Shown in pieces: positions 1 to 17,765 of a stretch of 26,008 bases of DNA. The first letter of the stretch is position 1. Each line of letters begins with the position of its first letter. Under the pieces are notes generated by a model. That model worked only from the letters and a program-made list of their open reading frames with translations, was not told the DNA's origin and searched no databases. The stretch comes from a virus, in IMG/VR virus record IMGVR_UViG_3300028393_000299, positions 1 to 26,008 of that record; one strand, given 5' to 3'. The position numbers and the translations under genes were made by a program.

Positions 1-201
1 TTTCCATTCTTCTAAGTTTTGTTTAGCAATAAACTCGTCAGCTGGTATTGGTTCTTTGATAGTATTTACAATACCATTCTTTACATAAGAAACACCAGTA
101 GCGTGTTTACCACGGATCATAGATTGAATAAAAAGACCACGAACTAAATCGTGATCTTTCTCTTTAAAGTTTTTAATGGCAATACCAAGAACGCCACACA
201 T
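1..201 (-). CDS. Class II glutamine amidotransferase, N-terminal part (runs off window)
   Basis: The first 67 codons of a gene that continues past base 1. The protein begins MCGVLGI, the N-terminal nucleophile (Ntn) signature of class II glutamine amidotransferases, in which Cys2 is exposed after removal of Met1 and attacks the glutamine amide. A second family motif, RGKHATG, lies at residues 30-36, matching the RGxDxxG-type substrate loop. Such domains release ammonia from glutamine for a synthetase, transferase or ligase domain that would lie further downstream and is not visible. The start ATG shares its A with the stop codon of the TET/JBP-like gene (TAATG) and has no clear Shine-Dalgarno sequence, so translation probably depends on reinitiation. 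The fused partner domain, and hence the substrate, cannot be known from this window. It could be an asparagine-synthetase-like or a GAT-QueC-like protein. Confidence 0.85.
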   Translation of the reverse strand, partial: MCGVLGIAIKNFKEKDHDLVRGLFIQSMIRGKHATGVSYVKNGIVNTIKEPIPADEFIAKQNLEEWK

Positions 202-1502
202 TAAAAGAATGCGTCCAAGCTTGCTGAATCTTGTTTGGCATAAGGATCAGCAATATTATGAGCTGCCATATATTCAAACCACTCTTGATCTTCCCACATA
301 CCTGCAGATACACCATTCCATAATGGACGCTGGAGCTTATGATCCTTGTTTAATCTACGCTCATCAACGAACTGCTTGCGCAGATTTTCGTAATCCCAAG
401 ACTCAAGTTCAATCATCTTCTCACGGAAATAAGCAACGATTGTCATACGGTCGTTATCATCGCCAATAAGTTCATCGTTTCCGTGAATTCCTTCGTGGTT
501 ATTGACAAGAAGCATATCACCAGGCTGGAGATTAATTGCAATGCGGTACTCAGGTAGAATAAACTGACCGCCTCTCCATCCCTTACCTTCTGGACCAGTA
601 ACCCCACAAATATTGCTGAAGCCACGAGTAAAATCGCCAGCATCTCGATGACAGGCAGTACGCCAATTATGGTTAACAGTAAGAGTAGTAAAGACAGTGC
701 CATCAATGCGGAATCTTGGGTCAAGTTTGTTTGCTTGATCATTTTGTGCTTTCCATCTGTTAGGAATTAATTCTTTGAATTGTGAATTAAGCTTATGAAG
801 ATATGGGTAACACAGAGCAAACTTATCTAAATTCTTTTCAGTATATGCAGTTGCTCGGCCATAAGGGATGCGTGGATAGCGGTCAAAGTATCCAGCGATA
901 CCAGACATTACAGACTGAGCGTAATTGGTGTCTGAAATATAATTATCAGAAACAAACTTTGCTTCTTTAATTTGCTCATCGCGTGGTAAATTTATAACAT
1001 CAAAAAGCCATTTTTCAAACCAGCCATGATATTCATTATAAGCTTTAGCTACTTCTGAACGAAGCCAAACCCTGCCACGTGTTTCTTCTTTGTTATTATT
1101 TTTATGAAATTCGCGAATAGATTCAATCGTAGTTCCATCATCAATAATATTTGATGGTCGACCAAGGAAACTAAGAATGTCTTCATGTTCGGGTGTTACC
1201 CAGTCACGGCCACCACGACCAGTTGTTCCAAGAAACTCACCACGTGGACCAGCAGCTAAACCACGGTTCTGTGATTCAACAGCGGCTTCTCTAAGCCCCG
1301 CATACGCAGCATCACATTCTTCTTTTGTAAAAACGTTTTTACGATATTTGAATATGATATTTGATTCATCATTGATGCCTGTTGGATTCCAAGCATAAAG
1401 ATCACAATCAGTTTCAATAACACGATCATAATAATTGTTATTAACAAAAGTACCAAGCGTTTCATCAGAATTAATATTTTGCCTTACTAAAACTTCAACC
1501 AT
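201..1502 (-). CDS. TET/JBP-like 2-oxoglutarate/Fe(II) dioxygenase
   Basis: A 433-residue protein. The C-terminal half carries the double-stranded beta-helix pattern of the TET/JBP family. A strand TTLTVNHNWRTAC leads into the iron-binding HRD (H285, D287) followed by AGDF. Then come GGQFILPEYR (311-320), the turn QPGDMLL (326-332), the distal iron histidine in GIHGN (H340), and the 2-oxoglutarate-binding arginine in RMTIVAYFRE (R352). Known TET/JBP enzymes hydroxylate the methyl group of 5-methylcytosine or thymine in DNA, and phage members do this as the first step of base hypermodification. The N-terminal 260 residues are unassigned and may bind DNA. ATG at 1502 is chosen over the TTG one codon upstream because GGAG lies 7 bases before it. 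The gene has its own promoter and is coupled to the amidotransferase downstream. The fold is well supported; the DNA substrate is inferred from the family, since no methyltransferase is visible here. Confidence 0.8.
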   Translation of the reverse strand: MVEVLVRQNINSDETLGTFVNNNYYDRVIETDCDLYAWNPTGINDESNIIFKYRKNVFTKEECDAAYAGLREAAVESQNRGLAAGPRGEFLGTTGRGGRDWVTPEHEDILSFLGRPSNIIDDGTTIESIREFHKNNNKEETRGRVWLRSEVAKAYNEYHGWFEKWLFDVINLPRDEQIKEAKFVSDNYISDTNYAQSVMSGIAGYFDRYPRIPYGRATAYTEKNLDKFALCYPYLHKLNSQFKELIPNRWKAQNDQANKLDPRFRIDGTVFTTLTVNHNWRTACHRDAGDFTRGFSNICGVTGPEGKGWRGGQFILPEYRIAINLQPGDMLLVNNHEGIHGNDELIGDDNDRMTIVAYFREKMIELESWDYENLRKQFVDERRLNKDHKLQRPLWNGVSAGMWEDQEWFEYMAAHNIADPYAKQDSASLDAFF

Positions 1503-1516
1503 CAATTTCTCCTAAA

Positions 1517-1542
1517 CTAGAATTGTCTAGTATATATACTAG
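1517..1542. promoter_or_regulatory. Palindromic operator-like site before the TET/JBP-like gene
   Basis: A perfect 16-base palindrome, CTAGTATATATACTAG, spans 1527-1542. It abuts a second inverted repeat, CTAGA-ATTG-TCTAG (1517-1530), sharing the middle CTAG, so three CTAG half-sites fall at 1517, 1527 and 1539. The block begins just downstream of a TATAAT -10 box, covering the expected transcription start, and ends before the GGAG of the TET/JBP-like gene. This is where a repressor operator would sit. It could instead be an mRNA 5' hairpin. The regulator is unknown; the AbrB-like protein encoded nearby is only one possibility. Confidence 0.45.
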
Positions 1543-1543
1543 T

Positions 1544-1572
1544 ATTATAGCGTGATTGAAGCAATTTTACAA
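1544..1572 (-). promoter_or_regulatory. Sigma70-like promoter for the TET/JBP-like and amidotransferase genes
   Basis: On the minus strand a TTGTAA -35 box (1567-1572) and a perfect TATAAT -10 box (1544-1549) are separated by 17 bases, the ideal spacing. The promoter lies inside the last codons of the MazG-like gene and fires toward the TET/JBP-like gene, giving a leader of about 35 bases. A host-type sigma70 promoter would fit early or middle expression, unlike the TATAAATA late boxes of the virion genes. Confidence 0.55.
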
Positions 1573-1958
1573 ATATATTTTGTGTTCGCCTTATCTAAAA
1601 TGCTTCTGATGTCAGGAGGCGTCCATTCTGCTGGTTTCTGCACTTTACCATCCTCACGACGAATCACCTTACCATTTACTAGCTTTGCCATATTGCTTCG
1701 ATGTACCTCAGCAAAAACATCGTCGAGAGGAATACCATAAGAAACGGCAGTGCCACAAGCAATGTAAATAATATCAGCAAGTGCATCAGCAATTTCAACA
1801 AGATCATTGGCGTATTCTGCATCAGTAAGTTCATTGAATTCTTCCGTGATAAGATTTCTACGAAGAATGCGCTCTTCTCTGTCAGGAAGCTCTGGCTTTT
1901 CACCAATACGCTGACCGAAAGCCTGATGGAAATCTTTTACGTCTGTATAAAAACTCAT
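1545..1958 (-). CDS. MazG-like nucleotide pyrophosphohydrolase
   Basis: A 137-residue protein with the all-alpha NTP pyrophosphohydrolase (MazG / PRA-PH type) metal site: ITEEFNE at 37-43 (the EExxE element) and EIADALADIIY at 55-65, which supplies the paired acidic residues E55, D58 and D62. The segment after it, with GIPLDDVFAEVHRSNMAKL, is typical of phage and bacterial members. The family hydrolyses nucleoside triphosphates to monophosphates plus pyrophosphate. Phage copies are thought to clean the nucleotide pool or alter host alarmone levels. The start ATG overlaps the stop of the upstream membrane-protein gene (ATGA). The last roughly 20 residues are lysine- and isoleucine-rich and outside the domain. 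The exact substrate cannot be read from sequence. Confidence 0.82.
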   Translation of the reverse strand: MSFYTDVKDFHQAFGQRIGEKPELPDREERILRRNLITEEFNELTDAEYANDLVEIADALADIIYIACGTAVSYGIPLDDVFAEVHRSNMAKLVNGKVIRREDGKVQKPAEWTPPDIRSILDKANTKYICKIASITL

Positions 1959-2158: not shown

Positions 2159-2690
2159 TAATCCACTCCGGAGGTTGCCTGTTAGTCCATTTATGAAGGT
2201 TTATTTTACCTTTACGATAATAATTTCTATAGTTAGTCAAGGGGTCGTCTGAAATAATATATTCATCTGCCATACAAGAAGGCATTGGAGTCCAATCCCA
2301 TTCCTTAAGATTCTTAGGAGGAGACTGTAACATGTACGAGATCTCACCATAGCATTTATGTGTTTTACCATAACGATGAGTATACTCGCGCATCAATGCA
2401 AACATGTGATCGACAAGCCAGTCGTAATTTTGTACAGAAGTACGACACCAAACAGCTGATGGATGATTGATATGCGTCGCCATATATATCACGCCTTCGC
2501 GAGCATCTGGGAGAACCCAACGTTTGGCTTTACGACCAGTTTGTGATTTACCTTCTATTTCTACACCATCAAGAACTCGATGTGCAGTCGAGAGCAACTG
2601 GGCGCTCTCGAGAATCATTTTAACAACATGCTTGTCCACCATCCACTCGGCGGCTTGTATTGGGTCTTTATCGATGTAAAAGATATTCAT
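2151..2690 (-). CDS. Conserved phage protein of unknown function (DKHVVKM family)
   Basis: A 179-residue protein with a recognisable but unassigned pattern. The N-terminus is MNIFYIDKDPIQAAEWMVDKHVV, then KMILESAQLLSTAH, then a central THINHPSAVWCRTS, and a C-terminal YRNYYRKGK. I recall this pattern from many T4-like phages without an established activity. The conserved Asp, His, Lys and Trp residues suggest an enzyme rather than a structural protein, but that is inference. The start overlaps the end of the deformylase gene by 23 bases, and the stop overlaps the small membrane-protein gene by 8. No convincing Shine-Dalgarno precedes it, so it is probably translated by coupling. Confidence 0.75.
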   Translation of the reverse strand: MNIFYIDKDPIQAAEWMVDKHVVKMILESAQLLSTAHRVLDGVEIEGKSQTGRKAKRWVLPDAREGVIYMATHINHPSAVWCRTSVQNYDWLVDHMFALMREYTHRYGKTHKCYGEISYMLQSPPKNLKEWDWTPMPSCMADEYIISDDPLTNYRNYYRKGKINLHKWTNRQPPEWING

Positions 2691-3207
2691 ATGAGCTAAG
2701 ATCCGTATTAAAGGTTAAGGAAGAAACGTCTCCACGTCTCCACTTTTCAAGAGCCTTATCGCGATGAAACCGATTTGCTCTGTTGTAAAAAACAATTCCA
2801 TCTAGATGGTCTAGTTCGTGTTGAAAGATACGAGCAGTCATACCTGTAAACTGCCTAGTTATTGTTTCGTTATTCGGTTTCGTAAAACGAACACGAATAT
2901 GCTGAGGTCTTTTTATCTTAACCGCTAAACCTGGAAAAGTCAAGCACCCTTCTTCTAAAGAAACAACTGTTTCTGAAGGTTGGACTATTTTCGGGTTGAA
3001 ACAAACAAAATTCTCAGGAGAACCACGCATCGCAAACACACGATAAGGAACTCCTACCTGATTGGCAGCAAGTCCAATACCATTACTCTCATACATAAAC
3101 TTTACAATTTCTCTTGAAAACTCACTCGGGTCGAACGGTGGGTTCTGAAAATTGAACTGTTGACACGGAGTCGTCAATATCGGATCGTTGCTCTTCACTA
3201 GTTCCAT
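2668..3207 (-). CDS. def: Peptide deformylase
   Basis: A 179-residue protein with all three deformylase motifs in order: GIGLAANQ (43-50), EGCLTFPG (86-93, where most bacterial enzymes have EGCLS) and QHELDHLDG (129-137). Metal ligands would be C88, H130 and H134, with E131 as the catalytic acid. The enzyme removes the formyl group from the N-terminal methionine of new proteins. Phage-encoded versions are known from marine T4-like phages and are thought to favour rapid processing of phage or key host proteins. ATG at 3207 is supported by an AAGGGA-type ribosome site and by alignment of MELVKSNDPIL with family N-termini. The first 86 bases overlap the AbrB-like gene in another frame. The short C-terminal extension after residue about 160 is not catalytic. 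Confidence 0.93.
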   Translation of the reverse strand: MELVKSNDPILTTPCQQFNFQNPPFDPSEFSREIVKFMYESNGIGLAANQVGVPYRVFAMRGSPENFVCFNPKIVQPSETVVSLEEGCLTFPGLAVKIKRPQHIRVRFTKPNNETITRQFTGMTARIFQHELDHLDGIVFYNRANRFHRDKALEKWRRGDVSSLTFNTDLSSYEYLLHR

Positions 3208-3358: not shown

Positions 3359-3504
3359 TGTCGTATAACTCCTGCTATAATAAAGATGTTAGTTATAACA
3401 TAACAGAGAACTATGCAGGTGCGAATCATAGCAACCTTATCAGCTTCTCTATCATCTTTCCCAGTTTTTTCACCGAGAGCTTTTGCCCAGATACGCCAAA
3501 TCAT
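3352..3504 (-). CDS. 50-residue membrane peptide
   Basis: A short gene encoding 50 residues. The N-terminus is MIWRIWAKALGEKTGKDDRE, then ADKVAMIRT, then one hydrophobic span (about 30-46, CIVLCYVITNIFIIAGV) ending in IRHW. The pattern WAKALGEK...READKVA.IRT...FIIAGVIRHW is one I recall from other T4-like marine phages, which supports it as real despite its size. The ATG overlaps the stop of the 2OG oxygenase gene (ATGA), and the stop overlaps the TTG start of the AbrB-like gene by 7 bases. It fills what would otherwise be the largest gap in the left cluster. Function unknown; an inner-membrane location with the charged N-terminus in the cytoplasm is inferred. Confidence 0.72.
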   Translation of the reverse strand: MIWRIWAKALGEKTGKDDREADKVAMIRTCIVLCYVITNIFIIAGVIRHW

Positions 3505-4082
3505 ACAGTCAAATCAAAATTAATAATAGTGCGATAACTGACACTAGGCTGACTGCTGCAATGATATCGAGAGCCATCAAAAAACACTGCTCTGCCACGT
3601 CTCGGCGTAACCCTTTTGTGCACTGTGAGTTGTACGTTTTGAGATCCACCTGGAACATCATTAATCGTTTGCTCATAGATAATAGTATCTCCATCAGAAT
3701 CATTGACGTAATACACACAAGCCACATGAGGAAGATGAGGAGGAAGATCGACGTGTACTCCATTGTGTTCTTTTCTGTATTGTGACACTAGAGGAAGCTG
3801 AAGGAAAATACGATTGTAGTAAATTTGTTTATATCCAGGAACAAATTGATTAAACCTGTCCATAAACATATGGTGAATAACATAACGTATTTCAGAGTTA
3901 TGAATGAACTTTTTTTCTGGATGATTTATAACATGTACGAAACCATGAGAAGGAAAGGGCTGATCGTTGTTACCGCTGACATCATTCAGGAATTTAAATT
4001 CGCAATGATGCATTATCATGTCATGGAGATAACCTTGATCTTTTTGGTTTAAGAGATCGTCAACTACCACTGTTTCGAACAT
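3501..4082 (-). CDS. 2OG-Fe(II) oxygenase superfamily protein
   Basis: A 193-residue single-domain protein. The iron site is read as HVD (H110, D112) in the context NGVHVDLPPHLPH, and H174 in FFDGSRYHCSSQP, with R184 (YRTIINFDL) as the 2-oxoglutarate ligand. Strands ACVYYVND and GDTIIYEQ between them fit the jelly-roll core. Small phage oxygenases of this type are common in T4-like marine phages; proposed substrates include proteins, nucleotides or nucleic acids, and none is established. The start has AGGA 9 bases upstream. The gene follows the HNH endonuclease gene after 9 bases. It is not closely similar to the TET/JBP-like enzyme at the left edge, so the two are not recent duplicates. Confidence 0.8.
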   Translation of the reverse strand: MFETVVVDDLLNQKDQGYLHDMIMHHCEFKFLNDVSGNNDQPFPSHGFVHVINHPEKKFIHNSEIRYVIHHMFMDRFNQFVPGYKQIYYNRIFLQLPLVSQYRKEHNGVHVDLPPHLPHVACVYYVNDSDGDTIIYEQTINDVPGGSQNVQLTVHKRVTPRRGRAVFFDGSRYHCSSQPSVSYRTIINFDLTV

Positions 4083-10107: not shown

Positions 10108-10629
10108 TTAAATTTTAGATATAGTATAATAAGTGTATCTGAAAGTAGCAGAAGCTTCTACGTATCTTATATCTGTATCTGTTGTATTGAAATTAAGACC
10201 AGATAATGTTATTGGGAATGCATCGGCGTATACTATTTCATAATTTGGCATTTTGGTACTTGATAAAATAACAAGAGATATATCAGAGTATACACCATCG
10301 CCAGTCCAAGAAGCAATATTAGCCAAGTTTTTATATTCTTCATATTCTTCTGGTTTACCAAAGGCTCTTAACCACTTATGTATTTCTAGATAATTTTGGA
10401 GATCTTCATCTACCTTGAATGATATATTAAAAATACCATATTCTAAGTGATCGCCTGGGTAAGGAATTTTAACAAAAGGATTCATAACATCAGGAGCTCT
10501 TACAGCAATCTCTGGTATGTTTACTTTCTGAACGAAGAAATTGACATTTGGGGCTTTCTTAATTTGGAAACGAAAATTAAGAGGGCTAAGAAAATTCTTG
10601 TTTGCTGGTGTGTTATCAACTGCAGTCAT
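10108..10629 (-). CDS. Tail-tube-fold virion protein (gene 3-like position)
   Basis: A 173-residue protein. The N-terminal SPLNFRFQIKKAPNVNFFVQ, the central strand YGIFNISFKVDEDLQNYLEIH, and the C-terminal DAFPITLSGLNFN plus EASATFRYTYYTI give the alternating beta pattern of the gp19 tube family: entry strand, long strand plus helix, then a 'FP..LSGL' strand and a final F.Y.YY strand. The gp19 protein of this window shows the same order with low identity. In marine T4-like phages the gene between 23 and uvsY is usually annotated as gp3, the tail tube terminator. Alternatives are a tube paralogue or a baseplate tube initiator. It has a perfect late promoter 26 bases upstream and GGAG before the ATG, so it is expressed late as a virion component. 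The exact position in the tail is uncertain. Confidence 0.7.
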   Translation of the reverse strand: MTAVDNTPANKNFLSPLNFRFQIKKAPNVNFFVQKVNIPEIAVRAPDVMNPFVKIPYPGDHLEYGIFNISFKVDEDLQNYLEIHKWLRAFGKPEEYEEYKNLANIASWTGDGVYSDISLVILSSTKMPNYEIVYADAFPITLSGLNFNTTDTDIRYVEASATFRYTYYTISKI

Positions 10630-17144: not shown

Positions 17145-17152
17145 TATTTATT
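17145..17152 (-). promoter_or_regulatory. Near-consensus late promoter (AATAAATA) before gene 20
   Basis: AATAAATA on the minus strand, one base from the TATAAATA late box. It overlaps the gene 19 stop and lies 51 bases before the gene 20 ATG. The same variant occurs before gene 19, which makes chance less likely, but activity is unproven. Confidence 0.4.
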
Positions 17153-17765
17153 AGATAGCGCCAGCAGTACCATCTAGCTCAGTTTGTGGTCCATACACGT
17201 TTACGCCACCAGCCTTCTTATCAGAAGTCTCAATAACTGGAACCCAATAATCATAAGAGAATGTTACAGAAAATTCTTCGATTTGACTAGCTGAATCCCA
17301 GCCAAGTTGAATTTCGCCAATAGATGTTGGGAAAGCCCCAACAAACTGATATGAACGAATTTCTGAACCATCTTTAGAATATTGAATTACTTCTAAGTCT
17401 GTCTTATACTGTTCAGCGCCAATGCCAGCATCACGAACATTTGATACATGACGATTAAGAGCATTTGACCAAGTTTCGAACAATGCACGAACAGCGAAAT
17501 CTTCGTCGTTCATTACTGTTACTGACCAGTCGCCGAAAGTTCTTTCTCCAGCAACTTTAATCTTACGACCAAAATAAGGAATTTCGATTGGAGAAATTGT
17601 TGATTCTGGAAGAGCAGCAGTACGGCAAACAAAACGGAACTTGTCTACAGAAACGCTATCAATGCCAAGAGCTCCTGGCACTGATAGAACTACGTTGAAT
17701 AGGGATGGTCTGGCACCACCGTACACCAGACCATTTTGTTTGAAGCTATTGATATTAAATGGCAT
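17151..17765 (-). CDS. 19: gp19 tail tube protein
   Basis: A 204-residue tube subunit (T4: 163). N-terminal FKQNGLVYGGARPSLFNVVL, then FVCRTAALPESTISPIEIPY, then GRKIKVAGERTFGDWSVTV and the C-terminal FVGAFPTSIGEIQLGWDSAS, with FSVTFSYDYW, match T4-like tube proteins. Hexameric rings of it stack to form the DNA channel inside the sheath. The extra residues lie mainly in the loop about 100-135 and in the tail. It follows gene 18 after 33 bases with a near-consensus late box, and it is separated from gene 20 by the hairpin region. Confidence 0.94.
   Translation of the reverse strand: MPFNINSFKQNGLVYGGARPSLFNVVLSVPGALGIDSVSVDKFRFVCRTAALPESTISPIEIPYFGRKIKVAGERTFGDWSVTVMNDEDFAVRALFETWSNALNRHVSNVRDAGIGAEQYKTDLEVIQYSKDGSEIRSYQFVGAFPTSIGEIQLGWDSASQIEEFSVTFSYDYWVPVIETSDKKAGGVNVYGPQTELDGTAGAI

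Follow-up and report, generated by a model that had tools for sequence, protein, structure and literature searches.

A TET/JBP dioxygenase gene heading an exchangeable decoration cassette in a T4-like phage: a possible entry to hypermodified thymine in DNA

The DNA analysed here (the window: 26,008 nt, positions 1-26,008 of IMG/VR record IMGVR_UViG_3300028393_000299, a 26-kb environmental virus fragment) carries on its minus strand, at 201-1502, an open reading frame that is confirmed to encode a TET/JBP dioxygenase. The reading that best accounts for this gene and its neighbours, to which a probability of about 0.6 is assigned, is that the dioxygenase hydroxylates thymine in the phage DNA, that a cassette, here of the amino-acid type, decorates the hydroxymethyl handle so formed, and that the decoration shields the DNA. 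The TET/JBP identity, the catalytic residues, the fold, the operon structure and the cassette content of the relatives were all computed.

The T4-like nature of the virus, as given by the sequence-only reading, is borne out by homologues of gp46/47, UvsW, gp23, gp22, gp21, gp20, gp18 and gp17 in the window, whose T4-like gene products include the scaffold, protease, portal, sheath and terminase proteins as well as a late sigma factor. Two tail-tube-like proteins are encoded on the minus strand, one (10108-10629) confirmed by PHROGs and the other (17151-17765) recognized by position only. The features of the TET gene and of its upstream side are:

201..1502, minus strand: TET/JBP dioxygenase, 433 aa (Pfam Tet_JBP, phrog_24024, AlphaFold model)
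420..851, minus strand: Tet_JBP catalytic domain, residues 218-361 (Pfam profile)
1509..1513, minus strand: Shine-Dalgarno motif AGGAG, 6 nt before the TET start (sequence; similar motif in relatives)
1544..1572, minus strand: promoter-like TTGTAA-17-TATAAT before TET (consensus match only; relatives similar upstream)
1545..1958, minus strand: MazG/PRA-PH-type nucleotide pyrophosphohydrolase (Pfam PRA-PH, E=5e-23)

The TET frame consists of 433 codons and a stop, with the ATG at 1502. The MazG/PRA-PH-type gene is the usual upstream neighbour of TET, being at position -1 in 49 of 84 loci. Between the two genes, a 16-bp perfect palindrome (CTAGTATATATACTAG, window 1527-1542) was weighed as a possible regulatory element but discarded, as it is absent in the relatives inspected. 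Farther upstream, also on the minus strand, the window encodes a pyrimidine-dimer DNA glycosylase family protein (PF03013, 2151-2690), found near TET in 55 loci, a phage peptide deformylase (2668-3207, E=1e-41), kept near TET in 56 loci, and a second 2OG-Fe(II) oxygenase unrelated to TET (3501-4082, 2OG-FeII_Oxy_3 just under its cut-off), which 13 loci likewise have on the upstream side of TET.

The assignment of the protein to the TET/JBP family, proposed from the letters, holds in the profile searches. Pfam Tet_JBP matches residues 218-361 with 72.5 bits (E=3.1e-20), i.e. twice the curated cut-off of 34.9; over the whole record the profile finds a single place, the TET gene (73.4 bits), and in 14 control genomes none. 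The protein also matches phrog_24024, a family with no function label (E=1.4e-137), and NCBIfam has no model for it. A phmmer search of the PDB with the single protein yielded no match, and the profile of A2, an alignment of close relatives, picked up only proteins of the clavaminate-synthase and TauD types, and these weakly; that of a diverse alignment (A1) reached human TET2 (E=1e-4). Two labels were rejected, namely a weak PHROG one (‘queuine tRNA-ribosyltransferase’) and the ‘SNF2 DNA repair protein’ that GenBank gives to TET relatives, no SNF2 helicase domain being found; the latter name probably comes from similarity to JBP2. The active site is located as follows:

642..650, minus strand: H285-R286-D287, two of the three iron ligands (H and D, invariant; aligned with the HRD of TET2)
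483..485, minus strand: H340, third iron ligand (invariant; aligned with TET2)
447..449, minus strand: R352, 2-oxoglutarate-binding arginine (invariant; aligned with TET2 ‘RISLVFY’)

The complete iron and 2-oxoglutarate site that had been read from the sequence, with its AGDF and GIHGN contexts, is present, and no iron ligand is lost. Neither the 7 phage homologues nor the 48 relatives compared show any variation at H285, D287, H340 or R352, and in A1 the HRD motif falls on that of human TET2, H340 on the third ligand and R352 on the 2-oxoglutarate arginine. The AlphaFold model (pLDDT 85, pTM 0.72) has the TET-like double-stranded beta-helix fold; with Foldseek, its best matches in the PDB were TET2 (4.5e-10), CcTet, NgTET1, CMD1 and then FTO, all nucleic-acid dioxygenases, and its matches among viral models were S-CBWM1 and other TET/JBP proteins. 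From sequence and model, the enzyme would be expected to oxidize a 5-methylpyrimidine in nucleic acid. The same data bear on the alternative that the protein merely resembles TET and is a 2OG oxygenase acting in metabolism or on proteins, such as one of the prolyl hydroxylase type of phages. T4-like phages do carry such enzymes, and one is present in the window at 3501-4082, but this alternative is highly improbable: Tet_JBP exceeds its cut-off twofold, TauD and another 2OG profile remain below theirs on the TET protein, a better match to a non-nucleic-acid oxygenase family was sought among the Pfam profiles and none scores higher, and the fold matches are nucleic-acid enzymes.

Outside the catalytic domain, two further regions were defined:

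945..1241, minus strand: insert of the T4-like lineage, residues ~88-186, not in minimal phage TETs (alignment A1)
204..410, minus strand: C-terminal extension, residues ~365-433, with a conserved WNG...EW motif (alignments)

The N-terminal region of about 260 residues, earlier described as unassigned and as a possible source of specificity, is in part accounted for. Tet_JBP starts at residue 218, and residues 1-87 and those from ~187 onward align in A1 with the minimal phage TETs HTVC112P (302 aa) and P12024L (288 aa), so that about half of the region is ordinary core shared with them and only residues ~88-186 are extra. The confidence of the AlphaFold model is low at residues 80-82, near the start of the insert.

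At least 585 relatives of the window TET were found in IMG/VR. The annotated ones are DLP6, C48C1, Cr30 and S-CBWM1, mostly under the ‘SNF2 DNA repair protein’ label, and DLP6, Cr30 and C48C1 are cultured. A short TET/JBP type (~288 aa, L098-L177) is common in other phage contigs, with at least 481 matches. For the survey of gene content, open reading frames were called in 87 loci and clustered, and the genes 3' of TET were read. TET was found to lie within a block of replication genes, with the MazG-type hydrolase before it and DUF3310, a putative glycosyltransferase, the sliding clamp and the clamp loader after it, and with a variable cassette between TET and the downstream replication genes. 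In these loci, which are the best-scoring 80 and include near-identical ones, so that simple counts and Fisher values are not independent, a base-decorating cassette follows TET in all 52 that are readable to the next core gene. The decorator is TAGT in 22, ADDT in 26 (25 of them with a P-loop kinase) and another putative glycosyltransferase in 4; none of the 52 combines TAGT with ADDT. Cr30, outside this set, has ADDT beside a TAGT-like protein and an inositol-phosphate synthase. The TET stop is overlapped by 1 or 4 nt by the first cassette gene when this is the amidotransferase (28 of 29 loci), TAGT (at least 21 of 26) or cluster 54 (4 of 4), and the amidotransferase is accompanied by amidoligase and ADDT in each of the 15 readable loci that have it. 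A quick tree of TET proteins calls for at least 29 changes of cassette type (33 with unassigned types included) and for at least 19 switches between the sugar and amino-acid classes; for the two largest groups, the starred branches by themselves already require 9-10 changes.

Some arrangements depart from the common ones. Two tandem ADDT-cluster genes are found in some cassettes (L033, L055, L058). In DLP6, the gene before TET (L002, 18241-19929), described as ModA-like, has by Pfam a nucleotidyltransferase and a weak phosphotransferase (APH) domain, which suggests another decoration chemistry; in C48C1 (L004, 21356-23385), TET is followed by an uncharacterized protein and a UDP-galactopyranose mutase, which suggests a decoration with galactofuranose.

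The regular presence of decorators weighs on a second alternative, according to which TET erases or alters host-made 5-methylcytosine, or oxidizes RNA, as a regulator, the cassettes being unrelated neighbours. Animal TET homologues act in this way and RNA oxygenases of the FTO type come next among the fold matches, but with no readable locus of the 52 lacking a decorator, mostly in overlapping frames, and with the TAGT family owing its very name to TET, such a role is very unlikely.

The cassette enzymes were identified mainly from Pfam families. Cluster 16 is TAGT, the TET-associated glycosyltransferase, and cluster 8 is ADDT, the amino acid:DNA transferase, with PF18724 matched by 34 of 42 members (best 1e-52); five members match the related aGPT-Pplase3, that of L033 has no Pfam match and that of Cr30 matches ADDT. 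Cluster 11 is Ploopntkinase3 (PF18751), cluster 14 a class II glutamine amidotransferase (GATase_6) with a conserved N-terminal Cys, and cluster 30 is ParB-like (PHROGs); cluster 54, found in 4 loci, is a putative glycosyltransferase (GT54) without a family match. Cluster 18 is, by sequence and predicted structure, an amidoligase: Amidoligase_2 is weakly matched by 18 of 20 members, the motifs GxExE, GGExNxxPT, HxH and T(I/V)EFR are conserved, and the top 50 PDB matches of the model (pLDDT 94), each with a modest E-value, are only of the glutamine synthetase, glutamate-cysteine ligase, YbdK and PafA types.

The cassette of the window itself is represented by its beginning:

1..201, minus strand: class II glutamine amidotransferase, first 67 codons with an M-C-G start, cut by the contig end (phrog_4736, E=6e-10)
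199..203, minus strand: TAATG, 1-nt overlap of the TET stop and the amidotransferase start (sequence; same overlap in 28 of 29 loci of this type)

The overlap suggests translational coupling of the two genes. The amidotransferase fragment, which is the first gene of the decoration cassette in the window, clusters with the full-length GATase_6 proteins of relatives. Of these relatives, L009 is the closest with long flanks and is colinear with the window over 11.5 kb at 82-85% DNA identity. In L009 and L008, the closest relatives, the amidotransferase (GATase_6, E=4e-11 and 8e-12, respectively) is followed by the amidoligase, the ParB-like protein, ADDT (2.4e-24 and 4e-24) and the kinase (PF18751, 2.7e-13 and 7e-13). 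By analogy with these two loci, the window phage would carry the same four genes past the contig end, and its cassette is most likely of the amino-acid type.

Which base is oxidized was approached through the presence or absence of other modification enzymes. The C5-cytosine methyltransferase family PF00145 was detected in none of the 70 records of this TET type (4 complete annotated T4-like genomes, 16 longer contigs and 50 others, most IMG/VR records being fragments) and in neither of two short-TET phages searched alongside the four complete genomes; the same search picked up 4 of 50 short-TET records and 10 of 14 controls. The ‘DNA methyltransferase’ annotations of C48C1 and P12024L were discarded as sources of 5-methylcytosine, both being of the adenine/N4 type (D12, N6_N4). 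Thymidylate-synthase-type enzymes (PF00303), which are the source of hydroxymethyl bases made at the nucleotide level, are missing in 12 of 13 TET records, with the controls ViI and W-14 positive; the sole positive record, Cr30, scores like an ordinary thymidylate synthase. HMUDK_hel, the 5-hmdU DNA kinase, was found in 0 of 10 TET records, with the controls M6, ViI and W-14 positive, and the kinase of the TET cassettes is the distinct PF18751, which in profile comparison shows weak similarity to the 5-hmdU kinase; both points speak against the preferred reading. One cassette ADDT has its nearest phage homologue in Lysinibacillus phage LysYB1 (profile comparison, 1.1e-29), where the gene of this homologue is immediately followed by one for a 5-hmdU DNA kinase (E=2e-24), with a thymidylate-synthase-type gene nearby. 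The lack of PF00145 in the 70 records, together with PF00303 in only 1 of 13, argues for thymine oxidized in DNA, and thymine is also the simplest target because no prior methylation is needed. Of the two substrates first suggested, methylated cytosine and thymine, the latter is favoured by about two to one. H285, D287, A288, G289 and D290 are invariant among the 48 relatives of all cassette types, R286 being the exception within 285-290, so that there is probably one common target base. The suggestion that modification takes place in polymerized DNA is strengthened by the decorators of the 52 readable loci and the rarity of PF00303.

The main competing proposal keeps the TET and decoration logic, with the oxidized base being 5-methylcytosine, made by the host or by an unrecognized phage methyltransferase, and the product a hypermodified cytosine. 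D290 aligns in A1 with N1387, a base-contacting Asn of TET2, and in NgTET1 the equivalent aspartate contacts the amino group of cytosine, which would fit cytosine better than thymine. In the characterized phage system, the TET works alongside a C5-methyltransferase and glycosyltransferases to hypermodify cytosine (Burke et al. 2021, cited in PMC12730594); the substrate of T6 TAGT is glucosylated 5-hydroxymethylcytosine (PMC13216743); and the host could supply the methylation. A Rossmann methyltransferase (cluster 48), with an FSGIG motif, comes after TET in five loci, and directly so in L012, L033, L041 and L077. Against this stand the sequence of cluster 48, which is without the PC motif of C5-methyltransferases, the contrast between 0 of 70 records of this TET type and 4 of 50 short-TET records for PF00145, and the fact that ADDT is known from thymidine hypermodification. 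On balance, cytosine as the target is rather unlikely.

According to the preferred thymine-based scheme, the Fe(II)/2-oxoglutarate-dependent TET would hydroxylate the 5-methyl group of a pyrimidine in the phage DNA, during or after replication, the base most likely being thymine and the product 5-hydroxymethyluracil. The hydroxymethyl group would be the handle for the cassette that begins at the overlapping next gene: the P-loop kinase would activate the hydroxymethyl base, ADDT would attach an amino acid to the activated base, and the amidoligase and glutamine amidotransferase would amidate (or extend) the carboxyl group of the amino acid, with the ParB-like protein possibly assisting. In sister phages, TAGT or another glycosyltransferase would act in place of the amino-acid cassette. 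In each case, the decoration would keep host nucleases from cutting the DNA. The TET activity, the base, the order of the steps, the cassette past the contig end and the protective role are the predicted parts of this scheme.

With respect to protection, the decoration probably hides the viral DNA from bacterial defences. DLP6, whose TET is 48% identical to that of the window and whose genome is without PF00145 and PF00303, is listed in a review with the words ‘DNA is restriction enzyme resistant’ (PMC8228603), and the original DLP6 paper also mentions a digest (PMC5349666). The resistance of DLP6 may be taken, by analogy, to back the protective role, other explanations of it also existing.

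More broadly, the survey can be read as describing a hot spot of base modification among T4-like phages, at which TET stays constant and would oxidize thymine in DNA, and exchangeable, translationally coupled cassettes would finish the base, the window type leading to an amidated amino-acid-linked thymine; this wider picture is tentative, at a little less than even odds. Phage TETs, TAGT and ADDT are already known. Provisionally, in the part of the literature covered, no description was found of TET as the entry to the amino-acid branch in T4-like phages, of the amidoligase-amidotransferase pair, of frequent cassette exchange, or of the modified base itself. If the scheme is correct, these phages reach thymidine-type hypermodification through bases in finished DNA, as for base J, and not through altered nucleotides. 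The exchange of cassettes behind a conserved TET looks like a rapid diversification of the chemical surface of DNA under attack by host nucleases, and the exchanged cassettes form a natural series for asking which defences each decoration defeats; their enzymes could also serve as DNA-labelling tools.

Among known systems, kinetoplastid JBP1 and JBP2 hydroxylate thymine in DNA, after which a glycosyltransferase completes base J. The order of a TET/JBP dioxygenase first and a decorator second is common to both; here the enzyme is from a phage and the decorator varies between phages, being of the amino-acid type in half. Iyer et al., in NAR in 2013, reportedly predicted phage TET/JBP products to be starting points for complex modification. 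The thymidine hypermodification of M6, ViI and phi W-14 (Lee et al. 2018; PMC6449724) has in common with the cassettes of L008 and L009 an ADDT-family transferase and a kinase for the hydroxymethyl base, and an amino-acid-type product would be expected here too. There, however, the handle is made at the nucleotide level by a dUMP hydroxymethylase (PF00303), whereas here it would be made by TET in DNA, with PF18751 in place of HMUDK_hel and with an amidoligase and a glutamine amidotransferase added. The hydroxymethylcytosine system of T4 belongs to the same virus superfamily, and the TAGT family is shared with a T6 glucosyltransferase (PMC13216743), but in T4 dCMP is hydroxymethylated before replication, whereas hydroxylation is here predicted in DNA, PF00303 being missing in 12 of 13 TET records. 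In the C5-cytosine hypermodification described by Burke et al. (2021, PNAS; as reported in PMC12730594), a phage TET/JBP enzyme likewise makes the hydroxymethyl handle in DNA and glycosyltransferases follow. The relatives of the present TET type differ in being without a C5-methyltransferase (0 of 70 records) and in that ADDT and a kinase take the place of a glycosyltransferase in half of their readable cassettes; TAGT follows TET in 22 of 52 loci, and the next gene in the window is the amidotransferase.
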